Shown here piece by piece: positions 24,789 through 37,905 of a stretch of 64,000 bases of DNA. The stretch covers positions 1 to 64,000 of the forward strand of contig NZ_PENZ01000010.1 of assembly GCF_003144395.1 (NCBI RefSeq), in the 5' to 3' direction. Source of the DNA: Proteus faecis. GTDB lineage: Bacteria; Pseudomonadota; Gammaproteobacteria; Enterobacterales; Enterobacteriaceae. A model generated the notes under the pieces. That model did no database searches. It saw only the letters and a list, made by a program, of their open reading frames with translations, and was not told the DNA's origin. The translations under genes were made by a program, and so were the position numbers. Each line of letters starts with the position of its first letter. Position 1 is the first letter of the stretch.

Positions 24789-27700
24789 ATGCTCTATCAA
24801 AAGACACAGGAAAAAGACAATTGTGGATTTGGGTTGATCGCGCATATTGAAGGGCAAGCCAGCCATAAGATTGTCAGAAATGCCATACATGGTCTCGCCA
24901 GAATGCAACATCGTGGTGCTATTCTTTCTGATGGCAAAACCGGTGATGGTTGCGGATTACTCTTACAAAAACCAGAGCGTTTTTTCCAATTAGTTGCGCA
25001 AGAAAAAGGCTGGCGTTTAGCAAAAAATTACGCCGTAGGTATGCTATTTTTAAGCCAAGATCCTAATATTGCCAAACAGTGCCGTCTCATCGTCGAAGAA
25101 GAGCTACAACGTGAAACCCTTTCTATTGTTGGCTGGCGTAAAGTTCCTATTAACACTGAAATTTTAGGCAGTATTGCGCTTTCCTCTCTTCCTTTAATCG
25201 AACAAGTTTTTGTTAATGCACCAGCAGGCTGGCGGATAAGTGATATTGAGAGACGACTCTTTGTTGCTCGTAGACGCATTGAAAAACGCATTACTGACAG
25301 TGATTTTTATATTTGCAGCCTTTCTAATTTAGTGACGGTTTATAAAGGCCTTTGCATGGCCATCGATCTACCTCGTTTTTTTACCGATCTGGCTGATCTA
25401 CGAATGGAATCTTCAATTTGTTTATTCCACCAGCGTTTTTCAACGAATACCACTCCCAGATGGCCACTTGCACAACCTTTTCGTTATTTAGCCCATAACG
25501 GTGAAATTAATACCATCACAGGCAATCGCCAATGGGCTAGAGCTCGTGCCTATAAATTCCATACACCACTGATCCCTGATCTACAAAGTGCAGCCCCTTT
25601 TGTAAATGAGAGTGGCTCAGATTCAAGTTCACTCGACAATATGTTAGAGCTTTTTCTCAATGGTGGTATGGATATTGTTCGAGCAATGCGATTGTTAGTG
25701 CCACCGGCATGGCAAAATAATCCACAAATGGATGATGATTTACGGGCATTTTTTGATTTTAACTCAATGCATATGGAGCCTTGGGATGGCCCTGCGGGCA
25801 TTGTATTATCAGATGGTCGTTATGCTGCGTGTACGCTAGATAGAAACGGTTTACGTCCAGCTCGTTACGTTATCACCACAGATAATATCATCACTTGTGC
25901 ATCTGAAATTGGTATTTGGGATTATCAACCAGATGAAGTGCGAGAAAAAGGACGAGTCGGCCCTGGTGAACTGATGGTCATTGATACTCATCAAGGACGC
26001 ATTTTGCACTCCGCCGAAACTGATGAGGATTTAAAAAGACGTCATCCTTATAAACTGTGGCTAGAGCGCAATGTCAAACGCTTAACGCCGTTTGAAGAGT
26101 TACCAGAACAACAAGCCACAGGACAACGCGCCTTTGATGACACCTTATTAGCCACTTATCAAAAACAATTTGCCTATAGCCAAGAAGAGCTTGAAAGCAT
26201 TTTGCATGTACTTGCAGAAAATGGGCAAGAAGCCACTGGCTCAATGGGCGATGACACTCCATTTGCTGTACTTTCTCAACGTCCTCGCCTTATTTACGAC
26301 TATTTCAGACAGAAATTTGCGCAAGTCACAAATCCTCCAATAGATTCATTAAGAGAAGCACATGTCATGTCTTTAGCGACCTGCATTGGACGCGAGATGA
26401 ATGTGTTTTGCGAAGCGGAAGGTCAAGCACATCGGCTGAGTTTTAAATCACCTATTTTGCTTTATAGCGATTTCCAACAGCTTATTAATCAAGAAAATCC
26501 TTATTACCAATCCGTTCATCTTGATATCACTTATCAACCAACAGAATACAACCTAGAAACAGCATTACGCCAATTATGCGCAAAAGCACAACAGGAAGTT
26601 CATCGTGGGGCAGTATTATTAGTTTTATCAGATAGAAATATCACTAAAGAACGATTACCGATCCCTGCTCCTATGGCAGTTGGCGCTGTACAAAAAGCAT
26701 TGGTCGATAATAATTTACGTTGTGATGCTAATATTATTGTTGAAACAGCCAGTGCCCGCGATCCCCACCATTTTGCCGTATTACTCGGATTTGGTGCGAC
26801 GGCTATTTATCCTTATCTTGCTTATGAATCTTTAGCTCAACGTGTCGATAAAAAAATCCTGCAAGCAAGCTATGCTCAAGTGATGCTGAATTACCGCAAC
26901 GGCATAAATAAAGGATTGTATAAGATCATGTCCAAAATGGGCATTTCAACAGTTGCCTCTTACCGTTGCTCTCAATTGTTTGAAGCCGTAGGATTAAACG
27001 ATGACGTTGTCGAACTCTGTTTTGCCGGTGTTGATAATCGTATTAATGGTGCTGACTTTAATGATTTTGAACACGACTTATTTAATCTGTCGAAACGCGC
27101 TTGGTTAACTCGTCATCCTTTAGAAGCTGGTGGTTTATTAAAATACACCCATAAAGGTGAATACCATGCCTATAACCCAGATGTGGTTCAAGCACTACAA
27201 AAAGCCGTAAATAGCGGGGAATATACGGATTATCAGCATTATGCAAGCCTTGTGCAACAGCGCCCAATTACAACCTTACGCGATATGCTAGTCCTCAATA
27301 GCAAGACAACGCCTATCTCAATTGAAGAAGTCGAACCTGAAACTGAACTATTTAAACGCTTTGATACCGCCGCAATGTCAATTGGCGCATTAAGCCGAGA
27401 AGCTCATGAAGCGCTAGCGCAAGCGATGAATACCTTAGGGGGATTTTCAAATTCAGGTGAAGGGGGCGAAGATCCAGCTCGTTACGGTACTAATAAAGTC
27501 TCACGTATTAAACAAATCGCCTCTGGTCGTTTTGGTGTAACACCTTCTTATCTAATGAGCGCAGATGTTTTACAAATCAAAGTAGCACAAGGGGCAAAAC
27601 CTGGTGAAGGCGGACAACTTCCCGGAGATAAAGTGACACCTTATATTGCGCAACTGCGTTATGCCGTACCTGGTGTGACCTTAATATCGCCGCCACCTCA

Positions 27701-29249
27701 TCATGACATCTACTCTATTGAAGATTTAGCACAGCTTATTTTCGACTTAAAACAGATCAATCCAACGGCACTGATTTCTGTAAAACTCGTATCAGAGCCC
27801 GGTGTGGGTACCATTGCTACTGGTGTTGCCAAAGCTTACGCGGATTTGATCACCATTGCTGGTTATGACGGTGGTACTGGTGCAAGTCCTTTAACCTCCG
27901 TAAAATATGCAGGTAGCCCGTGGGAACTGGGCTTAGTTGAAACTCAACAAGCATTAGTGGCAAACGACCTACGCCATAAAATTCGTTTACAAGTCGATGG
28001 TGGATTAAAGACAGGTCTAGATATTATTAAGGCGGCGATTTTAGGCGCAGAAAGTTTTGGATTTGGTACTGGGCCCATGGTGGCATTAGGCTGTAAATAT
28101 CTACGCATTTGCCATTTAAATAATTGCGCAATGGGTGTTGCAACCCAAGATGAGACGCTCCGCCGTAACCATTATCACGGATTACCAGAACGCGTTATTA
28201 ACTACTTCCGTTTTATTGCACAAGAAACCCGTGAGTTAATGGCATTACTTGGCGTGAGAAAAATCACGGATTTAATCGGTCGAACCGATCTACTTTCGTG
28301 CCTAGAAGGTGTTAGCAGTAAACAGCAAAAACTCTCTTTAGGTGGTTTATTAGAGACAGCAGCTTCACCATCAGGCAATGCGCTTTATTGTCAGGAAAAT
28401 AATAATACTTATGATAAAGGCGAATTAAATCAGCGTATTGTTGCTCAGACTCGTGATGCAGTTGAACTACAAAAAAGCCAAACATACTATTTTGATATAC
28501 GTAATACAGACCGCTCTGTGGGAGCAACATTATCAGGCATTATCGCCCAAAAACAGGGTGAAAATGGCTTATCTGCCACACCTATTAAACTTTATTTTAC
28601 GGGAACTGCAGGTCAAAGCTTTGGTGTATGGAATGCACAAGGTGTTGAATTAACCTTAGTGGGCGATGCTAATGATTATGTTGGTAAAGGCATGGCTGGC
28701 GGCCGCATTGTTATTTTCCCTCCAGTTGGCTCTGCTTTTAAAAGTCATCACGCAACCATTATGGGCAATACCTGCCTTTATGGTGCAACCGGCGGAAAAC
28801 TCTATGCCTCAGGCTTGGCTGGAGAGCGTTTCGCCGTCAGAAACTCCGGCGCGATTGCTGTTGTTGAAGGCGTTGGTGATAACGGCTGTGAATATATGAC
28901 TGGCGGTATTGTCTGTGTTCTGGGTAAAACAGGTATTAACTTTGGTGCGGGAATGACGGGTGGATTTGCCTATCTGTTAGATGAAGATCTCACGTTATCG
29001 CAACGGATCAACACTTCGTCAATCGAGTTGCTACCTGTTGCATCCTTTGCCATTCTCGCTGAACATCTACGTGGCATGATTGCAGAACATGTCAGGCTAA
29101 CAGGCTCTCAGCAAGGAGAAAGATTCCTTTCACAGTGGGAATATTGGTCACAACACTTTAAGTTGGTTAAGCCCAAATCAAGTGATGTCAATGCGTTGCT
29201 TGGTCATCCTCGTCGTTCATCTGCTGAATTACGCGTTCAGGCACAATAG
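24789..29249 (+). CDS. gltB: Glutamate synthase (NADPH) large subunit
   Basis: GltB is the GOGAT alpha subunit and makes two glutamates from glutamine and 2-oxoglutarate. The protein is 1486 aa, the length of E. coli GltB counted from the same MLY start. The short propeptide ends before Cys12 (DNCGFGL), which becomes the N-terminal nucleophile of the class II amidotransferase domain. The synthase domain carries FMN and 3Fe-4S sites (GGEDPARYG; CRICHLNNCAMGVATQ with the cluster cysteines), and the C-terminal beta-helix GXXGXXXG repeats lie at about 1250-1400. GTAGGAAGC precedes the ATG. It forms an operon with gltD, 9 bp downstream. Confidence 0.98.
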   Translation: MLYQKTQEKDNCGFGLIAHIEGQASHKIVRNAIHGLARMQHRGAILSDGKTGDGCGLLLQKPERFFQLVAQEKGWRLAKNYAVGMLFLSQDPNIAKQCRLIVEEELQRETLSIVGWRKVPINTEILGSIALSSLPLIEQVFVNAPAGWRISDIERRLFVARRRIEKRITDSDFYICSLSNLVTVYKGLCMAIDLPRFFTDLADLRMESSICLFHQRFSTNTTPRWPLAQPFRYLAHNGEINTITGNRQWARARAYKFHTPLIPDLQSAAPFVNESGSDSSSLDNMLELFLNGGMDIVRAMRLLVPPAWQNNPQMDDDLRAFFDFNSMHMEPWDGPAGIVLSDGRYAACTLDRNGLRPARYVITTDNIITCASEIGIWDYQPDEVREKGRVGPGELMVIDTHQGRILHSAETDEDLKRRHPYKLWLERNVKRLTPFEELPEQQATGQRAFDDTLLATYQKQFAYSQEELESILHVLAENGQEATGSMGDDTPFAVLSQRPRLIYDYFRQKFAQVTNPPIDSLREAHVMSLATCIGREMNVFCEAEGQAHRLSFKSPILLYSDFQQLINQENPYYQSVHLDITYQPTEYNLETALRQLCAKAQQEVHRGAVLLVLSDRNITKERLPIPAPMAVGAVQKALVDNNLRCDANIIVETASARDPHHFAVLLGFGATAIYPYLAYESLAQRVDKKILQASYAQVMLNYRNGINKGLYKIMSKMGISTVASYRCSQLFEAVGLNDDVVELCFAGVDNRINGADFNDFEHDLFNLSKRAWLTRHPLEAGGLLKYTHKGEYHAYNPDVVQALQKAVNSGEYTDYQHYASLVQQRPITTLRDMLVLNSKTTPISIEEVEPETELFKRFDTAAMSIGALSREAHEALAQAMNTLGGFSNSGEGGEDPARYGTNKVSRIKQIASGRFGVTPSYLMSADVLQIKVAQGAKPGEGGQLPGDKVTPYIAQLRYAVPGVTLISPPPHHDIYSIEDLAQLIFDLKQINPTALISVKLVSEPGVGTIATGVAKAYADLITIAGYDGGTGASPLTSVKYAGSPWELGLVETQQALVANDLRHKIRLQVDGGLKTGLDIIKAAILGAESFGFGTGPMVALGCKYLRICHLNNCAMGVATQDETLRRNHYHGLPERVINYFRFIAQETRELMALLGVRKITDLIGRTDLLSCLEGVSSKQQKLSLGGLLETAASPSGNALYCQENNNTYDKGELNQRIVAQTRDAVELQKSQTYYFDIRNTDRSVGATLSGIIAQKQGENGLSATPIKLYFTGTAGQSFGVWNAQGVELTLVGDANDYVGKGMAGGRIVIFPPVGSAFKSHHATIMGNTCLYGATGGKLYASGLAGERFAVRNSGAIAVVEGVGDNGCEYMTGGIVCVLGKTGINFGAGMTGGFAYLLDEDLTLSQRINTSSIELLPVASFAILAEHLRGMIAEHVRLTGSQQGERFLSQWEYWSQHFKLVKPKSSDVNALLGHPRRSSAELRVQAQ

Positions 29250-30656
<1,407 letters not shown>

Positions 30657-30700: not shown

Positions 30701-30733
30701 ATTATCCCATTTAATTTAAGTGGGATAATTTTT
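30701..30733 (+). terminator. Terminator after gltBD
   Basis: The stem ATTATCCCA (30701-30709) / TGGGATAAT (30721-30729) is followed by a T run to 30733. Confidence 0.8.
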
Positions 30734-31026
30734 CAATACTATCGGTGAAACTAATAAATAGTATTTAAGGAAAATAAAAACATCAGACAAAAATCATTCT
30801 CATTAGCATTTAATTTAATGTATAGAATAATTTTTTGATAAATATCGATATTCTTTTTTGTATCAAAATAACACTCACGATCTATATTAAATATAATTTA
30901 TTTTCGTATTTTTTACTTTGTCTCCTTTTGTTTAACCTTTCCGTCATCTTTTAATGGTAATTGTTTTACAGCATTTGTTAATAACATCACAGTCTAAAAA
31001 AATAGATTTTATTTCAGCTATTAAAT

Positions 31027-31067
31027 TTGATAACAATCAAATATTGTCAACCAACCAACTTCATAAT
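31027..31067 (+). promoter_or_regulatory. FNR class II promoter of the dcuC-like/abgA-like operon
   Basis: TTGATAACAATCAA (31027-31040) is a perfect match to the FNR consensus TTGAT-N4-ATCAA. A -10-like CATAAT sits at 31062-31067. A start point about 7 bp later would put the FNR site centre near -41, the classical class II activator position. The first gene begins about 83 bp downstream of that start. This predicts anaerobic induction. Confidence 0.7.
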
Positions 31068-31156
31068 GGAGTCACCTAATAACTTTACAGAAAAATATAA
31101 TTTATTGATGTTAGGTTCGTTTTCATAAAATTGTCATAATTAACTAGGGGATCACT

Positions 31157-32431
31157 ATGGTGATGCAACTTATCGCAGTAGCCGTTATTATCGTAACTGT
31201 CTATTTGCTAATAAAAAAATATGAAACCCGAATGGTGCTAATTGGTGCCGGCTTATTACTCTGTATTTTAAGTCTGAGCCCATTAGATGCGTTTACCGCA
31301 TTTAGCGAGCGCATGGTGTCTTCATCATTAATTCAAGCAATCTGTTCGAGTATGGGTTTTGCTTATGTTATGAAATATACCAAATGCGATATGCATCTGG
31401 TCCATGTTTTATCAAAAGTAATGACTCGTCTGGGCTTCTTCCTTATCCCAGCTACCGTTGTCGTAACGTATTTCATTAATATCGCAATCCCATCAGCAGC
31501 TGGTTGCGCAGCAGCGGTAGGTGCGACACTTATTCCATTATTAATCGCAGCACGTATTCACCCGGCTATCGCTGGTGGCGCAGTATTATGTGGTACTATC
31601 GGCTCAATGCTAAGCCCTGGTATGTCGCATAACGCCTTCGTTGCTAACATGGCAAATATGGAAGTGGTTGATTTAATCGCTCGTCATAGTCCATACAGCT
31701 TAATGGCAGGTGGTATCGCAGCGGTTTCACTCGCTGTTGTTGCTTTAGTGAAAAAAGAGTTCAAAATGGCTTCTGTTGCTGGTGATGCATCATCTTCATC
31801 AGCACAAGCAACGCCAGAAGCTGTTCGCCCTAACTACTTATATGCAACAGCACCTTTTATTCCATTAATCCTGTTAATTCTGCCATTCTTCGAGTCTTTC
31901 AGTACATTTAAACTGTCTGTACCAGCAGCAATGTTAATTGGTTCTATCTATGCTCTGTTCATCACATTAACTAACCCAGCACAAATTACGAAAGAGTTCT
32001 TTAAAGGTATGGGTAATGCTTATGGTGATGTATTGGGTATCATCATTGCAGCTGCTGTATTCGCAGCAGGTCTGAAAGCATCTGGTTTAATCGACGCGTT
32101 CATCAACTTCTTAACTCATTCTCCTGAATTTGCTCGCTGGGGTGGTACTTTAGGGCCATTCTTAATGGGTATTATTACTGGTTCTGGTGACGCGGCAGCA
32201 TTCGCATTCAACGAAACAGTCACACCACATGCTGCACAATTCGGTTATGAAATTCCTGATATGGGTATGGCTGCTGCACTATCTGGCGCATTAGGCCGTA
32301 CTATGTCACCACTAGCCGGCGCTGCTATTGTTTGTGCTGGCCTTGCAAATATTAACCCAATGGAAATCGCAAAACGTACTGCACCAGGTATGATTATTGG
32401 CGTCATCGCTGTTGCGTTATTCATGTTATAA
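31157..32431 (+). CDS. DcuC-family anaerobic C4-dicarboxylate-type transporter
   Basis: The protein is a 424-aa polytopic membrane protein with about 11-12 hydrophobic segments. The C-terminal half carries DcuC-family patterns: GNAYGDVLGIIIAAAVFAAGL (about 287), MGIITGSGDAAAFAFNE (about 335), and LGRTMSPLAGAAIVCAGLA (about 376). In E. coli, DcuC exports succinate and exchanges C4-dicarboxylates anaerobically. This protein is shorter than DcuC (461 aa) and its substrate is not certain. Being joined to an AbgA-type hydrolase (8 bp downstream) suggests uptake of an acyl- or aroyl-amino acid such as an N-acyl glutamate or aspartate. AGGGGATCACT precedes the ATG, and an FNR site lies upstream. Confidence 0.8.
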   Translation: MVMQLIAVAVIIVTVYLLIKKYETRMVLIGAGLLLCILSLSPLDAFTAFSERMVSSSLIQAICSSMGFAYVMKYTKCDMHLVHVLSKVMTRLGFFLIPATVVVTYFINIAIPSAAGCAAAVGATLIPLLIAARIHPAIAGGAVLCGTIGSMLSPGMSHNAFVANMANMEVVDLIARHSPYSLMAGGIAAVSLAVVALVKKEFKMASVAGDASSSSAQATPEAVRPNYLYATAPFIPLILLILPFFESFSTFKLSVPAAMLIGSIYALFITLTNPAQITKEFFKGMGNAYGDVLGIIIAAAVFAAGLKASGLIDAFINFLTHSPEFARWGGTLGPFLMGIITGSGDAAAFAFNETVTPHAAQFGYEIPDMGMAAALSGALGRTMSPLAGAAIVCAGLANINPMEIAKRTAPGMIIGVIAVALFML

Positions 32432-32445
32432 GTGGAGAAATGAAT

Positions 32446-33714
32446 ATGTCAGCTCTTACTCTCGAAAAATTGATTAAATGGCGTCGCGAATTTCACCAAT
32501 ATCCAGAAATTGGTTGGTCTGAATTTCTTACAACAGCAAAGATCGTTAAAGAATTACGTAGCTTAGGTTTAGAAGTTAAAGTTGGCCCTGAAGTTATCAA
32601 CCAAGAGTTCGCTTTTGGTCGTCGTCGCCAAGTCGTTGAGAAAGGGCTGGCTATTGCAAGAAAACACAACGTTGATGAAGCACTGCTTGATGAGATGAAA
32701 GAACTTACAGGCTGTGTGGCTATCTTTGACAGTGGTAAAGCGGGTCCAACAGTAGCACTGCGTTTTGATATCGACTGTGTGGGTGTTAATGAGGCCACTG
32801 AAACTAAACACCGTCCTCATGCCGAAAACTTTGCCTCTTGTCACGCGGGTGAAATGCACGCTTGTGGTCACGATGGACATATCTCTATCGGTTTAGGTGT
32901 TGCTCACTGGTTAGTTGAGAATAAAGATAAAGTTGTTGGTAAAGTTAAAATTTTATTCCAACCAGCAGAAGAAGGTGTTCGTGGCGCGCGTGCGATGGCT
33001 GAAAGTGGTATCGCAGACGACGCAGATTACTTCTTAGGTGCACACTTAGGCTTTATCGCAAACAGTGGTGAAATTGTTATTAACCCAACACATTTCTTAT
33101 GTACCACTAAATATGACTTCCGTTTTAAAGGTGCTCCATCTCACGCAGGTGCAGAGCCAGAATTAGGCCGTAATGCATTAGCAGGTGCTTGCCATGCAGC
33201 AACACAAATGCTAGGTATTTCTCGCCACGGTAAAGGAATGTCACGTATCAACATCGGTGTATTAAAAGCTGGTGAAGGCCGTAACGTCACCCCTGCTAAT
33301 GCTGAAATGCAAATCGAAGTTCGTGGTGAAAACGAAGAGATCAACAGCTTTATGGCAGCAAATGCTGTACGTATGGCTGAAGGTGCAGCACATAGCTTCC
33401 AGTTAGAAATGGAAAGTGAAATCATGGGTGAAGCCGTTGACTTGACGAATGACCAAGAATTGATTGATGTGATGACCAAAGTTGTGGGTAAACACTCAGA
33501 ACTAACAGCCGTTGCGACGCGTCCATTTGGTGGCAGTGAAGATGCAACAGTATTAGCAAAACGCGTACAGCGTTGTGGTGGTAAATCACTGTACTTCGTT
33601 GTTGGTGCTGATAGAACCGCAGGTCACCACCAAGCAGGCTTTGATTTCGATGAAAAACAATTAATGACAGCTGTTAACCTTTATACAGGTTGTTTAGAAG
33701 AACTGCTGAAATAA
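32446..33714 (+). CDS. AbgA-like M20 family amidohydrolase
   Basis: The protein is about 422 aa. M20/ACY1-type metal ligands are visible: CHAGEMHACGHDGH (about 128-141), the EE of FQPAEEGVRGARAMA (about 172), and the C-terminal TAGHHQAGFDFDE. The dimerisation-domain motif SHAGAEPELGRNAL lies near 230. Overall it resembles E. coli AbgA, the large-insert subunit-type p-aminobenzoyl-glutamate hydrolase, more than generic hippuricases. I prefer the ATG at 32446 because GGAG lies 8 nt upstream; the ATG at 32440 is only 2 nt from that motif. It probably cleaves an amide-linked amino acid imported by the upstream transporter. No abgB partner is present. Confidence 0.82.
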   Translation: MSALTLEKLIKWRREFHQYPEIGWSEFLTTAKIVKELRSLGLEVKVGPEVINQEFAFGRRRQVVEKGLAIARKHNVDEALLDEMKELTGCVAIFDSGKAGPTVALRFDIDCVGVNEATETKHRPHAENFASCHAGEMHACGHDGHISIGLGVAHWLVENKDKVVGKVKILFQPAEEGVRGARAMAESGIADDADYFLGAHLGFIANSGEIVINPTHFLCTTKYDFRFKGAPSHAGAEPELGRNALAGACHAATQMLGISRHGKGMSRINIGVLKAGEGRNVTPANAEMQIEVRGENEEINSFMAANAVRMAEGAAHSFQLEMESEIMGEAVDLTNDQELIDVMTKVVGKHSELTAVATRPFGGSEDATVLAKRVQRCGGKSLYFVVGADRTAGHHQAGFDFDEKQLMTAVNLYTGCLEELLK

Positions 33715-33732
33715 TCTTAATTTAATCACATT

Positions 33733-33766
33733 AAAGCTCTGTAATTTATTTTACAGAGCTTTTTTA
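33733..33766 (+). terminator. Terminator after the amidohydrolase gene
   Basis: The 12-bp stem AAAGCTCTGTAA (33733-33744) / TTACAGAGCTTT (33751-33762) is followed by Ts to 33765. Confidence 0.9.
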
Positions 33767-34083: not shown

Positions 34084-34332
34084 ATGTCAAATATTAAATT
34101 AATGTCACTTGATAAAGTGAAGCCTAGTCGTATTGCCACAATTAAAGCGGTTAAAAGCGCAGATTTATTATTGAAGCAAAAATTATTTAATATGGGTTTT
34201 ATTCCCGGAGTGAGTATTGAAATGATCCGCTCAGCCCCTTTATTAGATCCTATTGAAATCAAAGTATTAGACTATCTAGTTGTATTAAGGCGAGAAGAAG
34301 CAAGTATGATAGAGGTAGAAATCAATGATTAA
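34084..34332 (+). CDS. feoA: Ferrous iron transport protein A
   Basis: The protein is 82 aa from the ATG at 34084. An in-frame ATG at 34042 would translate through the Fur box into an all-isoleucine leader and is rejected. It has the SH3-like FeoA fold pattern: LMSLDKVKPSRIATIKAV, then LLKQKLFNMGFIPGVSIEMIRSAPLLDPIEIKVLDYLVVLRREEASMIEVE. FeoA is a small cytoplasmic protein needed for FeoB activity. It overlaps feoB by 8 bp. The gene is AT-rich and lacks a clear ribosome-binding site. Confidence 0.92.
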   Translation: MSNIKLMSLDKVKPSRIATIKAVKSADLLLKQKLFNMGFIPGVSIEMIRSAPLLDPIEIKVLDYLVVLRREEASMIEVEIND

Positions 34333-36769
34333 AGTGGCACTGGCAGGACAGCCCAATTGTGGAAAATCAACACTCTTCACAATGCTAAGTGGCATTAATC
34401 AACATGTTGCAAATTATCCTGGTGTAACAATCGATAAAAAGATAGGTCACATTAAATACGATGAGAATAAAATAGAACTCACTGATTTACCTGGAACCTA
34501 TTCATTTAGTTCATTTTCTCTTGAAGAAAAAGTCACTAAGCGTTATTTAATTGAAGAAAATCCTGACATTATTATTAATGTGATTGATGCTTCTTGTTTA
34601 AAAAGAAGCCTATATCTTACCTTTCAATTACTCGAAATTGGCAAGCCTGTCATTATTGCATTAAATATGATGGATATTGCAAAAAGACGAGGTTTAGAAA
34701 TAGATATTGATACACTTAGCAATGAGCTAGGTGTGCCAGTCATAGCGACTAATGGTGTTAGAGGAATAGGCAAACAAGCACTTTTATCCGCACTATCTCA
34801 GATAGATAAAAGAGAAACCAAAATATCACCTTTTCGAATTACTTATGCTGAATTAGATCCGCTTATTGAACGTATTTCAAAAAATATAAATAACAGCATC
34901 CACTTATCTTCTCGATGGTTAGCGATTAAATATTTAGAAAAAGAAGAAGCAGTAATTAATAGTATTGATATTAATAATCAAGAGATTGATACTGAAATCG
35001 ACGCCTTAAAAGGGAAGATAGATGTTGATTCCATTCTCGCATCAGAACGTTATAAATTAGCTAATCATCTTTACTCCTTATCCACAAAAGAAAAAAATAA
35101 AAAAGAGAAAACCTTCACCGATTTTATAGATAAAATCGTCCTTAATCGCTGGTGTTCTTTTATCATCTTATTGCTTGTTATTTATGGCACTTATGAACTC
35201 GCCATTGTAAAAGGTTATGAATTAACTAACTATACTTGGCCTTATCTCGCCAAATTAAAAAACTTATTAATCTCCCTATTACCTGAACCTCAATTCGTTG
35301 ATATTCCACTTTTAACTGAATTAGGCATCTGGTTAATTAACAGTGCATTGGCTTTACTAAATTATATTCCTATTTTTATCATCTTATTTGCCATCATCGC
35401 CATCATGGAAGATGTGGGATATATGCCTCGTATCGCCTTTATTTTAGACCGAATTTTTAGACGATATGGATTACATGGGCAATCTACATTACCTCTCGTA
35501 CTCGGTGGTGCTTTCGTAGGGGGCTGTGCTGTTCCCGGTATTATGGCAACAAAAGGGATTGCCGATGAGCGAGCAAGAATTGCAACCGCTCTCACTGTTC
35601 CCTATATGAATTGCTTAGCAAAGGTCCCTTTTTACACATTACTTTTGGGTTCATTCTTCGTGCAAGAGATGACATTAATGATGTTTTTCATCTCAACAGT
35701 CACTCTCTTTATTGCACTCAGTGTCGCTAAAATATTGACATCAACATTCTTAAAAACCAAAGAGTGTGCCCCCTTTATCATGGCACTTCCCTCTTACCAT
35801 ATCCCGAGTATTAAGAATGTCTCTTTGCGTGTAGCTCAACGAGTTTGGCTTTATATTTATAAAGTTGGCACGATTGTTATGGCTGTTGCTATCGTGCTTT
35901 TCGTCTTATTACAATTTCCGGGGATCTCATCAGAGAAACAGATTGAAATTGATAACAAAGCCCAGATTGCCCTTGATAGTTTTTATCAAAAAGTGGGCTC
36001 TACCCCCTATCAAAAAACATTTGATTCTGAAGAATCCGTTATTGAGCTATTAAATTTATATAACAAATATCGTGCAGATAAGATGGCGTCATCCTCCAGT
36101 GAAGCAAAACAGTTAGATGCTGATTATGCCCTCCAATATCCATTTTTATTTAACTTTATCAAACCAAAAACAAATGATGATCGCGCAATCAATCGCGCCA
36201 TAAGGAAGTTATCCCAACAATCTCAATTAATACAAAATGAGATCAAAAGTGAACGTATTGAAAATTCATTTTTAGGGATGTTTGGCCGCTTTATTGAACC
36301 TGCAACACAATTTGCAGGCTTTGACTGGCGAATAAATGTTGCCTTTCTCAGTTCATTTGCTGCTAGAGAAAGTGCCGTTGCAACAATAGGGGCAATTTAT
36401 ACATCAGGACAAGGTGAACGTATTGAACAATCTTTAGAGAAAGATAGTGTTTATACCCCATTACATGCTTCTGCCATGCTTATTTTTATGATTTTCACCC
36501 CACCGTGTATCGCATCAATGGTTGTCGTGAAACTGAATGTTCATTCATACGGATTAATGCTTTTAGCGATTTTTATGCCATTCATCATTGGAATGACAAT
36601 TGCCTCTATTTTCTACACATTAAGTCTTAATCTACATTGGGATGGTGTTGAAATGATGGGATATTTTTATGCTTTTGTCGTCACCACTACGATCATTCTT
36701 GGTTCAATAAAACGTAAAAAGAAACCGCATATTGAAAAAAATTTAAAAATTTATGTAAGACAACAGTAG
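34325..36769 (+). CDS. feoB: FeoB-type Fe2+ (or other metal) transporter, long variant
   Basis: The protein is 814 aa (E. coli FeoB 773). The N-terminal G domain has G1 GQPNCGKST (8-16), the G2 Thr in NYPGVTID, G3 DLPGTYS, and G4 NMMD. The membrane part contains two gate regions, with the conserved Cys401 in GGCAVPGIMATKGIADERARIATALT and MNCLAKVPFYTLLLGSFF, then a second half with FAARESAVATIGAIY. The gate sequence AVPG...LAKVPFY differs from the E. coli NVPA...GARLAIF type. A charged soluble insertion of about 110-130 residues lies at about 540-665. feoA overlaps it by 8 bp. No feoC gene is present. Confidence 0.92.
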   Translation: MIKVALAGQPNCGKSTLFTMLSGINQHVANYPGVTIDKKIGHIKYDENKIELTDLPGTYSFSSFSLEEKVTKRYLIEENPDIIINVIDASCLKRSLYLTFQLLEIGKPVIIALNMMDIAKRRGLEIDIDTLSNELGVPVIATNGVRGIGKQALLSALSQIDKRETKISPFRITYAELDPLIERISKNINNSIHLSSRWLAIKYLEKEEAVINSIDINNQEIDTEIDALKGKIDVDSILASERYKLANHLYSLSTKEKNKKEKTFTDFIDKIVLNRWCSFIILLLVIYGTYELAIVKGYELTNYTWPYLAKLKNLLISLLPEPQFVDIPLLTELGIWLINSALALLNYIPIFIILFAIIAIMEDVGYMPRIAFILDRIFRRYGLHGQSTLPLVLGGAFVGGCAVPGIMATKGIADERARIATALTVPYMNCLAKVPFYTLLLGSFFVQEMTLMMFFISTVTLFIALSVAKILTSTFLKTKECAPFIMALPSYHIPSIKNVSLRVAQRVWLYIYKVGTIVMAVAIVLFVLLQFPGISSEKQIEIDNKAQIALDSFYQKVGSTPYQKTFDSEESVIELLNLYNKYRADKMASSSSEAKQLDADYALQYPFLFNFIKPKTNDDRAINRAIRKLSQQSQLIQNEIKSERIENSFLGMFGRFIEPATQFAGFDWRINVAFLSSFAARESAVATIGAIYTSGQGERIEQSLEKDSVYTPLHASAMLIFMIFTPPCIASMVVVKLNVHSYGLMLLAIFMPFIIGMTIASIFYTLSLNLHWDGVEMMGYFYAFVVTTTIILGSIKRKKKPHIEKNLKIYVRQQ

Positions 36770-36792
36770 ATTATTTATCACAAGGATATTTT

Positions 36793-37095
36793 ATGAAAAA
36801 GTACATTATTTCACTCGCGCTCATCTTAGTTTCACCTGCGGCATTCTCACATACCGCCTTATTATCGTGCTTTGATGAAGGAGATGGCACGGTTACGTGC
36901 GAAGGTGGATTTAGTGATGGAAGTAGCGCAAGTGGTGTTGATTTTCATCTTAAACAAGACGGTAAAATTATTTTATCAAAGAAATTTAATGAGCTTAATG
37001 AAGTGAGTTTTGAAAAACCTAAAGGGGATTATTCTGCAGTACTTAATGCCGGTGAAGGACATGAAGTCACCATTAAGAGTTCTGACATTAACTAA
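36793..37095 (+). CDS. Secreted 100-aa NikL-like protein of the feo operon
   Basis: Residues 1-19 form a signal peptide (MKKYIISLALILVSPAAFSH), with cleavage before His20 or nearby. The mature part is a short beta-rich domain with the pattern CFDEGDGTVTCEGGFSDGSSASG and the ending GEGHEVTI. This recalls the periplasmic domain of NikL-type components that accompany DUF4198/NikK proteins in nickel and cobalt uptake loci. Two cysteines (27 and 36) could form a disulfide, and the new N-terminal His is a potential metal ligand. It lies 23 bp after feoB and 12 bp before the DUF4198 gene, with ACAAGGATATTTT as ribosome-binding site. The function is inferred from context only. Confidence 0.6.
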   Translation: MKKYIISLALILVSPAAFSHTALLSCFDEGDGTVTCEGGFSDGSSASGVDFHLKQDGKIILSKKFNELNEVSFEKPKGDYSAVLNAGEGHEVTIKSSDIN

Positions 37096-37107
37096 GGGAA
37101 AATACCG

Positions 37108-37905
37108 ATGAAAAAATTAATCACAGTCGCAACAACAGCATTAGTCCTCTATTCAAGTGCGTCTTTTGCTCACTTTCAAATGATCTATACACCGGAATCA
37201 GCCTTATCTAAAGGTGCAAATATCCCATTAGTTACACTGTTCACGCATCCCTTCTCTGATGAACACACCATGGATATGGGCACACCTGAAAGTTTTTATG
37301 TTGTTCATAAAGACAAAACAAAAGACTTAAAGGATTCACTACAGCCTATTCAATGGCAAGGTAATGCCAATAGTGCTCAAGCTTATAAAACCGATTATAA
37401 AGCACGTGGAATGGGCGATCATGTCTTCGTTTTGACCCCAGCCCCTTATTATGAAAAAAGTGAAGGCGCTTATATACAACAAATCACAAAAGTTATGGTG
37501 AATGTTGCGGGATTACCCACAGACTGGGATAAAACTTACGGCTTAAAAGCAGAGATCGTGCCATTAACGAAACCTTACTCAATTTGGACTAACTCAACCT
37601 TTTCGGGTGTGGTAATGAGTGAAGGAAAACCGGTTCCATTTGCTGATATCGAAGTTGAATATCTCAACTCAGATATGGATTTAACCAACAATAAAACCGA
37701 AAAAACGAAATTTAGCGCACCTCAAGATAGTTTTATTACGTTAGGTATTAAAGCGGATGAGAACGGTAAGTTTACATTTGGTATTCCTAAATCAGGTTGG
37801 TGGGGTTTTGCTGCAATGGGAGTGGGTCCAGATACAACATTCAATGGTAAAGAGCTGAGCCAAGATGGTGTTATTTGGGTTCAAGCTAAAGATATGGGTG
37901 AATAA
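37108..37905 (+). CDS. DUF4198 (NikK-like) periplasmic protein of the feo operon
   Basis: The protein is 265 aa. A signal peptide (about residues 1-21, ending in SSASFAH) leaves His at the mature N-terminus (HFQMIYTPESAL), a typical metal-ligand arrangement of DUF4198/NikK proteins. A C-terminal Ig/carboxypeptidase-regulatory-like part contains GVVMSEGKPVPFADIEVEYLN and ADENGKFTFGIPKSGWWGFAAMG. DUF4198 proteins occur with nickel/cobalt ECF transporters and with Feo loci, where they are thought to collect metal in the periplasm. It is followed 6 bp later by the 38-aa Cys-rich peptide gene. Confidence 0.75.
   Translation: MKKLITVATTALVLYSSASFAHFQMIYTPESALSKGANIPLVTLFTHPFSDEHTMDMGTPESFYVVHKDKTKDLKDSLQPIQWQGNANSAQAYKTDYKARGMGDHVFVLTPAPYYEKSEGAYIQQITKVMVNVAGLPTDWDKTYGLKAEIVPLTKPYSIWTNSTFSGVVMSEGKPVPFADIEVEYLNSDMDLTNNKTEKTKFSAPQDSFITLGIKADENGKFTFGIPKSGWWGFAAMGVGPDTTFNGKELSQDGVIWVQAKDMGE

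Follow-up and report, generated by a model that had tools for sequence, protein, structure and literature searches.

The window, i.e., the whole 64,000-nt stretch of Proteus faecis DNA analyzed here (contig NZ_PENZ01000010.1), is part of a Proteus genome of 3.89 Mb in 52 contigs. Its forward strand carries two neighboring genes, T (31157–32431) for a DcuC-family membrane carrier and H (32440–33714) for an AbgA-like M20 hydrolase, with a gap of 8 bases between them. Genomes of P. terrae and P. penneri encode an H that matches the one of the window at 100% identity (rounded). The T–H operon is flanked by gltBD (24789–30656) and by a FeoAB-like cluster. Terminator-like hairpins on the forward strand lie both 3′ of gltD (30701–30729), where they set the upstream operon apart, and 3′ of the T–H operon (33733–33762), and T and H hence appear to be a two-gene transcription unit of their own. 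Within the 427-nt gap between the gltD hairpin and the first gene, the operon strand holds an FNR box. Loci and genomes used for comparison are numbered with L and G, respectively.

FNR box and promoter

The box, TTGATAACAATCAA (31027–31040, forward strand), reads TTGAT-AACA-ATCAA and matches the consensus TTGAT-N4-ATCAA exactly, as an earlier note on this DNA had claimed. A −10 hexamer, CATAAT (31062–31067, forward strand), follows 21 nt after the box, and this spacing is equal in Proteus and Providencia. From the hexamer we infer a transcription start at about 31075, which would give a 5′ untranslated region of ~82 nt (31075–31156, forward strand); an AGGGG ribosome-binding sequence, recognized by eye, stands directly 5′ of the ATG of T. 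With this start, the 21-nt spacing would place the box center (31033.5) at position −41.5. The earlier note had likewise put the site near −41. Here, hexamer and spacing can be read directly, and the value of −41.5 is a prediction from the −10. Of 23 E. coli promoters that FNR activates directly and whose start is known, 19 have the site at −41.5 ± 4 (PMC3688515).

The genome encodes fnr, whose product aligns with E. coli FNR over 245 of 250 residues at 93% identity. This gene, the promoter geometry conserved in Proteus, Providencia, and further Enterobacterales, and boxes of the same genome that also lie 21 nt from a −10 (nirB, dmsA-like, and ompW) together make the predicted class II FNR promoter of the T–H operon well supported, in line with the earlier note. 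FNR would thus bind at 31027–31040.

Farther upstream, TGTTAATAACATCACA (30976–30991, forward strand) resembles a CRP site with one mismatch to TGTGA-N6-TCACA. Its center lies 50 bp upstream of the FNR box center, i.e., near −91.5. A site of equal quality arose in 16 of 1000 shuffles of the intergenic stretch, and the CRP site is hence only a suggestion. In an alignment of 11 Proteus sequences, i.e., the window and ten loci, the FNR box and the −10 are nearly unchanged, as are parts of the leader and a block at ~30974–31008 that includes the CRP-like site, while most other intergenic DNA drifts. The CRP-like site may be functional, or the block 30974–31008 may serve another regulator; the block also holds an A-rich run.

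The window contains two exact boxes versus 0.26 expected, a number reached in 2 of 100 shuffles. The second box, at 25981–25994 inside gltB, is probably a chance occurrence, given that, of the genome's 32 exact boxes, 11 are located within reading frames >360 nt and 21 are not. When the 427-nt intergenic stretch was shuffled 1000 times, an exact box appeared in 7 shuffles and an exact box with a −10 at 20–22 nt in a single one. Genome-wide, the 32 exact boxes compare with 5 for the reversed pattern, a control that may be too low as it contains TAG, which is rare in enteric DNA.

Each of the 32 boxes was read in both directions, giving 64 cases, and the best −10 with at least 4 of 6 matching positions was taken at 19–23 nt. 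A −10 stood at 21 nt in 11 of the 64 directions (present box included), versus 3, 1, 4, and 4 at 19, 20, 22, and 23 nt, respectively. Two of these 11 boxes (L141, L157) are inside frames. We compared seven box-adjacent proteins with NCBIfam; they are mostly fragments, for which scores below the full-length cut-offs are to be expected, and six of them received names. The 21-nt layout was found upstream of the genes for NirB, for the A subunit of a dimethyl sulfoxide reductase-like enzyme (dmsA-like), and for OmpW. At the exact boxes of an iron alcohol dehydrogenase and of FeoA, the −10 spacing was 22 and 23 nt, respectively, and for the hydrogenase-2 small subunit gene no −10 was found at 19–23 nt from its exact box. 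The seventh protein, Ndh-like by eye, obtained no NCBIfam name at E 1e-30. A genome search for the box followed at 19–23 nt by a perfect TATAAT gave no match, which tells little, since CATAAT differs from it.

Promoter conservation across relatives

We defined a strict layout as a box with at most one mismatch followed exactly 21 nt on by a −10 (at least 4 of 6 positions). It was sought in 400 nt of upstream DNA (410 nt for L010 and L011), and of 300 shuffles made for each locus, 0 to 4 satisfy it. L071 was excluded, its carrier being 53.99% identical and hence below the 54% filter. All ten Proteus loci have the strict layout, each with an exact box and CATAAT. It is also present in all eight Providencia loci, with one mismatch and CACAAT or CAAAAT; these loci represent six distinct genomes, as L133 repeats L013 and L135 repeats L012. 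Among further Enterobacterales loci with carriers 64–70% identical (L102–L112), the strict layout was found in 7 of 11, and in 9 of 11 when 22 nt or two mismatches were allowed, which admits L102, with an exact box but a 22-nt spacing, and L110, with 21 nt but two mismatches in the box. No box layout was found upstream in L108 and L109, which are second copies in their genomes.

Carrier and hydrolase

T, a protein of 424 aa, passes the family models NF037994 (DcuC_1; 514.1 bits, cut-off 100), TIGR00771 (214.5, cut-off 187), and Pfam DcuC PF03606 (70.2, cut-off 23.1). It falls far below the equivalog models of E. coli DcuC (PRK10654, 89.4 bits of 513; PRK09804, 62 of 623), and 95 of 373 aligned residues (25%) are identical between the two proteins. 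The genome holds five further matches to the Pfam family, four of them stronger than T and one weaker, the latter being an AbgT gene. As the earlier note had proposed, T can be assigned to the DcuC family, with C4-dicarboxylate transport itself being putative.

The assignment of the second gene in the operon to an AbgA-like M20 hydrolase also held. H (424 aa) passes TIGR01891 with 285.4 bits (cut-off 153.75), shares 40% identity with E. coli AbgA and 28% with part of AbgB, and has as best solved relative 3io1, an aminobenzoyl-glutamate utilization protein (E 4.8e-101). C142, H144, E177, E178, H202, and H397, which we take to be the metal ligands and base of the M20 family, are kept in 55 of 55 aligned H rows. 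Other positions invariant in all 55 rows differ in AbgA, e.g., R262, N337, and D338. AlphaFold models of T and H (mean predicted local distance difference test scores of 32.1 and 52.5, from 9 and 11 closely related rows, respectively) were too poor to use.

That a carrier and an M20 enzyme stand here instead of the AbgT/AbgAB set is true of the operon, in which AbgB was not found, but one AbgT gene does exist elsewhere in the genome (contig C34, L137:1483–3060). The 4.5 kb read around this unlinked gene contains no M20 gene, neither AbgA nor AbgB. A genome search with H at E up to 0.001 gave only one other match, on contig C27, which shares 21% identity with H and 25% with AbgB.

Pairing of T and H

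Wide stretches from 68 loci (L001–L014, L053–L071, and L101–L135) were compared. H is the next same-strand gene after T in 52 of the 56 loci in which T is at least 54% identical (L071 rounding to 54), or in 50 of 54 without the two repeated genomes. Exceptions are L053, where H follows three genes on, and L054, L055, and L064. In contrast, H is next in 0 of 12 loci with a T of 42–48%. The pairing is hence a property of the T subfamily.

At the order level, 20 of 394 genomes have a T of at least 54%, 20 of 388 have an H (E up to 1e-120), and 18 have both; these counts are dominated by one family and hence not independent. G296 and G155 have H but no such T, G074 and G332 have T but no such H, and G314 has both, far from each other. 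In G296 (C10:23477–26111), an H relative (54%) directly follows a DcuC-like gene of another subfamily, 28% identical to T, which is possibly an independent pairing. In a class sample of 369 genomes, T was found at E up to 1e-60 in two, both of this order. No description of the T–H pair was found in open-licence PubMed Central papers, a search that does not cover print elsewhere.

Other neighbors accompany the more distant carriers. In nine of the 12 loci (L121–L129, T 47–48%), T is directly preceded by an adenosine-deaminase-like gene, which in turn follows a LysR-like gene (by eye); the one cluster member scanned reached 191 of 216.55 bits for TIGR01430. In L130 and L131 (T 45–47%), the gene directly before T is argininosuccinate-lyase-like (one cluster member scanned), and in L132 neither of these genes is found there. 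The argininosuccinate-lyase superfamily releases fumarate, hinting that the carrier branch of L130 and L131 might take up N-succinyl-type compounds that release fumarate.

Linked genes in Pasteurellaceae and Providencia

One family (f9) with 19 loci and genomes of 1.8–2.7 Mb was taken as Pasteurellaceae because 18 of its 19 stretches carry at least three copies of the DNA-uptake words of Pasteurellaceae; L053 carries one, and six controls carry 0 to 1. In 15 of the 19 loci, the same-strand gene directly before T is pepE, encoding aspartyl dipeptidase; these 15 include L054 and L055, both without H there. The one pepE product scanned passes the PepE model with 321.8 bits (cut-off 156); the other 14 were named by clustering with it. 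Where the stretch held no pepE (L061, L062, L064, L065), the DNA before T was tested for the promoter layout. In L069, four more same-strand genes precede pepE, so the promoter may sit farther upstream. A hydantoinase/carbamoylase-type M20 gene, in varied orientations, lies near T–H in eight Providencia loci (six genomes) and six Pasteurellaceae loci. Two members scanned reached 385 and 382 bits for the N-carbamyl-L-glutamate amidohydrolase ErtE, below the cut-off of 520.

For Haemophilus influenzae, we assume that the HI locus tags correspond to the Pasteurellaceae loci analyzed here and that HI0587 is pepE. HI0585 and HI0586 are annotated as C4-dicarboxylate carriers (PMC3877243), and HI0584 is labelled as putative peptidase/hydrolase or as aminobenzoyl-glutamate utilization protein (PMC3879429, PMC3928620). 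HI0584 belongs to one iron/heme-responsive gene set with aspA, pckA, and mdh (PMC3879429). FNR is a direct activator of pepE in E. coli (PMC3688515).

Feo-like cluster

The Feo-like cluster of the window (34084–37905) includes a small FeoA-like frame, seen by eye, and a FeoB-like protein of 814 aa that passes TIGR00437 (456.7 bits, cut-off 315.65) but reaches 350.8 of 683 bits for PRK09554. Two small exported-looking proteins follow, one weakly NikL-like (nickel/cobalt transport; 37 of 100 bits) and one DUF4198. A second feoA, with an exact FNR box (L156), lies elsewhere in the genome. The cluster might encode a metal importer distinct from canonical Feo, and nickel import would suit a urease producer.

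Discussion

We propose, with confidence that is about even, that T–H is an FNR-controlled operon for the uptake of N-acyl- or aminoacyl-aspartate, its cleavage, and the delivery of aspartate to fumarate respiration. Without oxygen, FNR would bind at about −41.5 and activate the class II promoter of T–H, perhaps assisted by CRP at about −91.5. T in the inner membrane would import a small compound that contains an acidic amino acid, most likely N-acyl- or aminoacyl-aspartate (or glutamate), and this uptake might be coupled to succinate exchange. H, as a cytoplasmic two-metal M20 hydrolase acting without AbgB, would cut the amide bond and release the amino acid. Aspartase would then convert aspartate to fumarate, which serves fumarate respiration as electron acceptor. 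On balance, we favor an aspartate conjugate as the substrate, with glutamate or carbamyl conjugates as further candidates.

The import and cleavage of an N-acyl dicarboxylic amino acid had already been suggested in the earlier note, and this part of it is supported only indirectly, by the T–H pairing, the pepE linkage, and the nearby carbamoylase-type M20 gene. Overall, we consider the finding real, with a well-supported regulatory half and a plausible metabolic half, the latter now sharpened to aspartate, fumarate respiration, and an H that acts without AbgB. Aspartate is a known fumarate source for anaerobic respiration. In Actinobacillus succinogenes, L-aspartate feeds fumarate respiration, and in bovine rumen fluid aspartate is present and fumarate and malate are absent (PMC10634366). 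We may tentatively go further and speculate about an anaerobic pathway, new to description and common to Enterobacterales and Pasteurellaceae, in which the NF037994 carrier would swap aspartyl conjugates or dipeptides for succinate, and H and PepE would free aspartate as a fumarate source within the FNR fumarate-respiration programme. This wider proposal is possible but doubtful.

Several observations weigh against an FNR-controlled supply of aspartate. The strict promoter layout is found in none of eight more divergent enterobacterial loci (L113–L120), six of which have a divergent LysR-type gene beside T instead. It is likewise found in none of the 18 Pasteurellaceae loci tested; in L056 and L058, TATAAT stands 21 nt downstream of a box with two mismatches, and some others carry CRP/FNR hybrid sites, GTGAT...ATCAA. 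An FNR box universal to T loci is hence not supported. The pepE gene of the Proteus genome itself is unlinked, and its upstream gap holds two sites with two mismatches and no box within one mismatch, so that sharing of the FNR box by this pepE is not supported either. PepE cleaves Asp-X, and its linkage is therefore no proof that H acts on X-Asp. In H. influenzae, the change of HI0584 is small, ranging from −1.59 to −1.84 across three isolates, with two further entries of −1.75 and not significant (PMC3879429); paired values in a second paper reach −3.39. Moreover, these data concern iron and heme, not oxygen, and nrfA and fdnH move opposite to HI0584, whereas dcuB and nrdD move with it. Co-regulation with aspA is thus supported more than oxygen control. 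HI0584 is also among the genes listed as absent in the type f strain KR494, where it hence is dispensable (PMC3928620).

Alternatively, the operon may be FNR-controlled and serve import and cleavage, but of a non-aspartate N-acyl or N-carbamyl amino acid, e.g., N-acyl-glutamate or a neutral amino acid conjugate, as a nitrogen or carbon source. M20 amidohydrolases of this kind vary widely in substrate, TIGR01891 is a subfamily model, and the hydantoinase/carbamoylase-type M20 genes near T–H in Providencia and Pasteurellaceae fit such a substrate. We nevertheless hold this to be rather unlikely, as an aspartate-like moiety is suggested both by the linkage to pepE and by the carrier's membership in a dicarboxylate family.

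A further possibility is that T is mainly an exporter or antiporter of C4-dicarboxylates such as succinate and H acts on an internal compound, the two sharing regulation but not substrate. E. coli DcuC exports succinate in fermentation, and in the four exceptions to the pairing T is present without H directly after it. However, the other 52 of 56 loci have H directly after T, T is distant from E. coli DcuC in identity and below both PRK10654 and PRK09804, and in G296 H directly follows a different DcuC-like gene. We hence regard this possibility as clearly unlikely. In favor of an Abg-type pathway for p-aminobenzoyl-glutamate, a folate breakdown product, with a DcuC-type carrier replacing AbgT, one may cite the 40% identity of H to AbgA and its best solved relative, 3io1. 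E. coli, however, needs both AbgA and AbgB, and here no AbgB stands beside H, the sole other genome match to H is distant, the AbgT gene has no adjoining M20 gene, and R262, N337, and D338 of H differ in AbgA. With AbgB missing and AbgT not linked, p-aminobenzoyl-glutamate is the less likely substrate, and we regard such a pathway as improbable. That another Crp/Fnr-family protein uses the box, or that the box is non-functional at this place, is very improbable, for although CRP and FNR half-sites are alike, hybrid sites occur at some Pasteurellaceae loci, and 11 of the 32 exact genome boxes lie inside long reading frames, the 21-nt spacing is kept across genera while the flanks diverge.

If aspartate is indeed what T and H provide under FNR control, the carrier and hydrolase would form a new supply route for bound aspartate in gut, urinary, and airway bacteria. 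The carrier subfamily NF037994, whose present name DcuC rests on similarity, would thereby gain a function, as would H. influenzae genes that papers describe as hypothetical or putative (PMC3879429, PMC3877243). The T–H operon combines known parts and is not a new kind of system. Like E. coli abgABT, it joins an AbgA-like M20 hydrolase to a carrier gene; it differs in having no AbgB, in a carrier of the DcuC and not the AbgT family, and in its FNR box in place of the divergent abgR. With E. coli DcuC, T shares the Pfam DcuC family and, as predicted, anaerobic control by FNR, dcuC being a listed FNR target (PMC3688515); T differs in its low identity, its scores below the equivalog models, and its subfamily. 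The pepE–HI0586/HI0585–HI0584 region of H. influenzae and its relatives has T (54–58%) and, where adjacent, H (56–59%) in the same order as here, with pepE commonly before T and, unlike Proteus, no strict class II FNR box. The FNR class II promoters of nirB and dmsA differ from T–H in their target genes; the nirB and dmsA-like genes of this genome share with it an exact box 21 nt from the −10.

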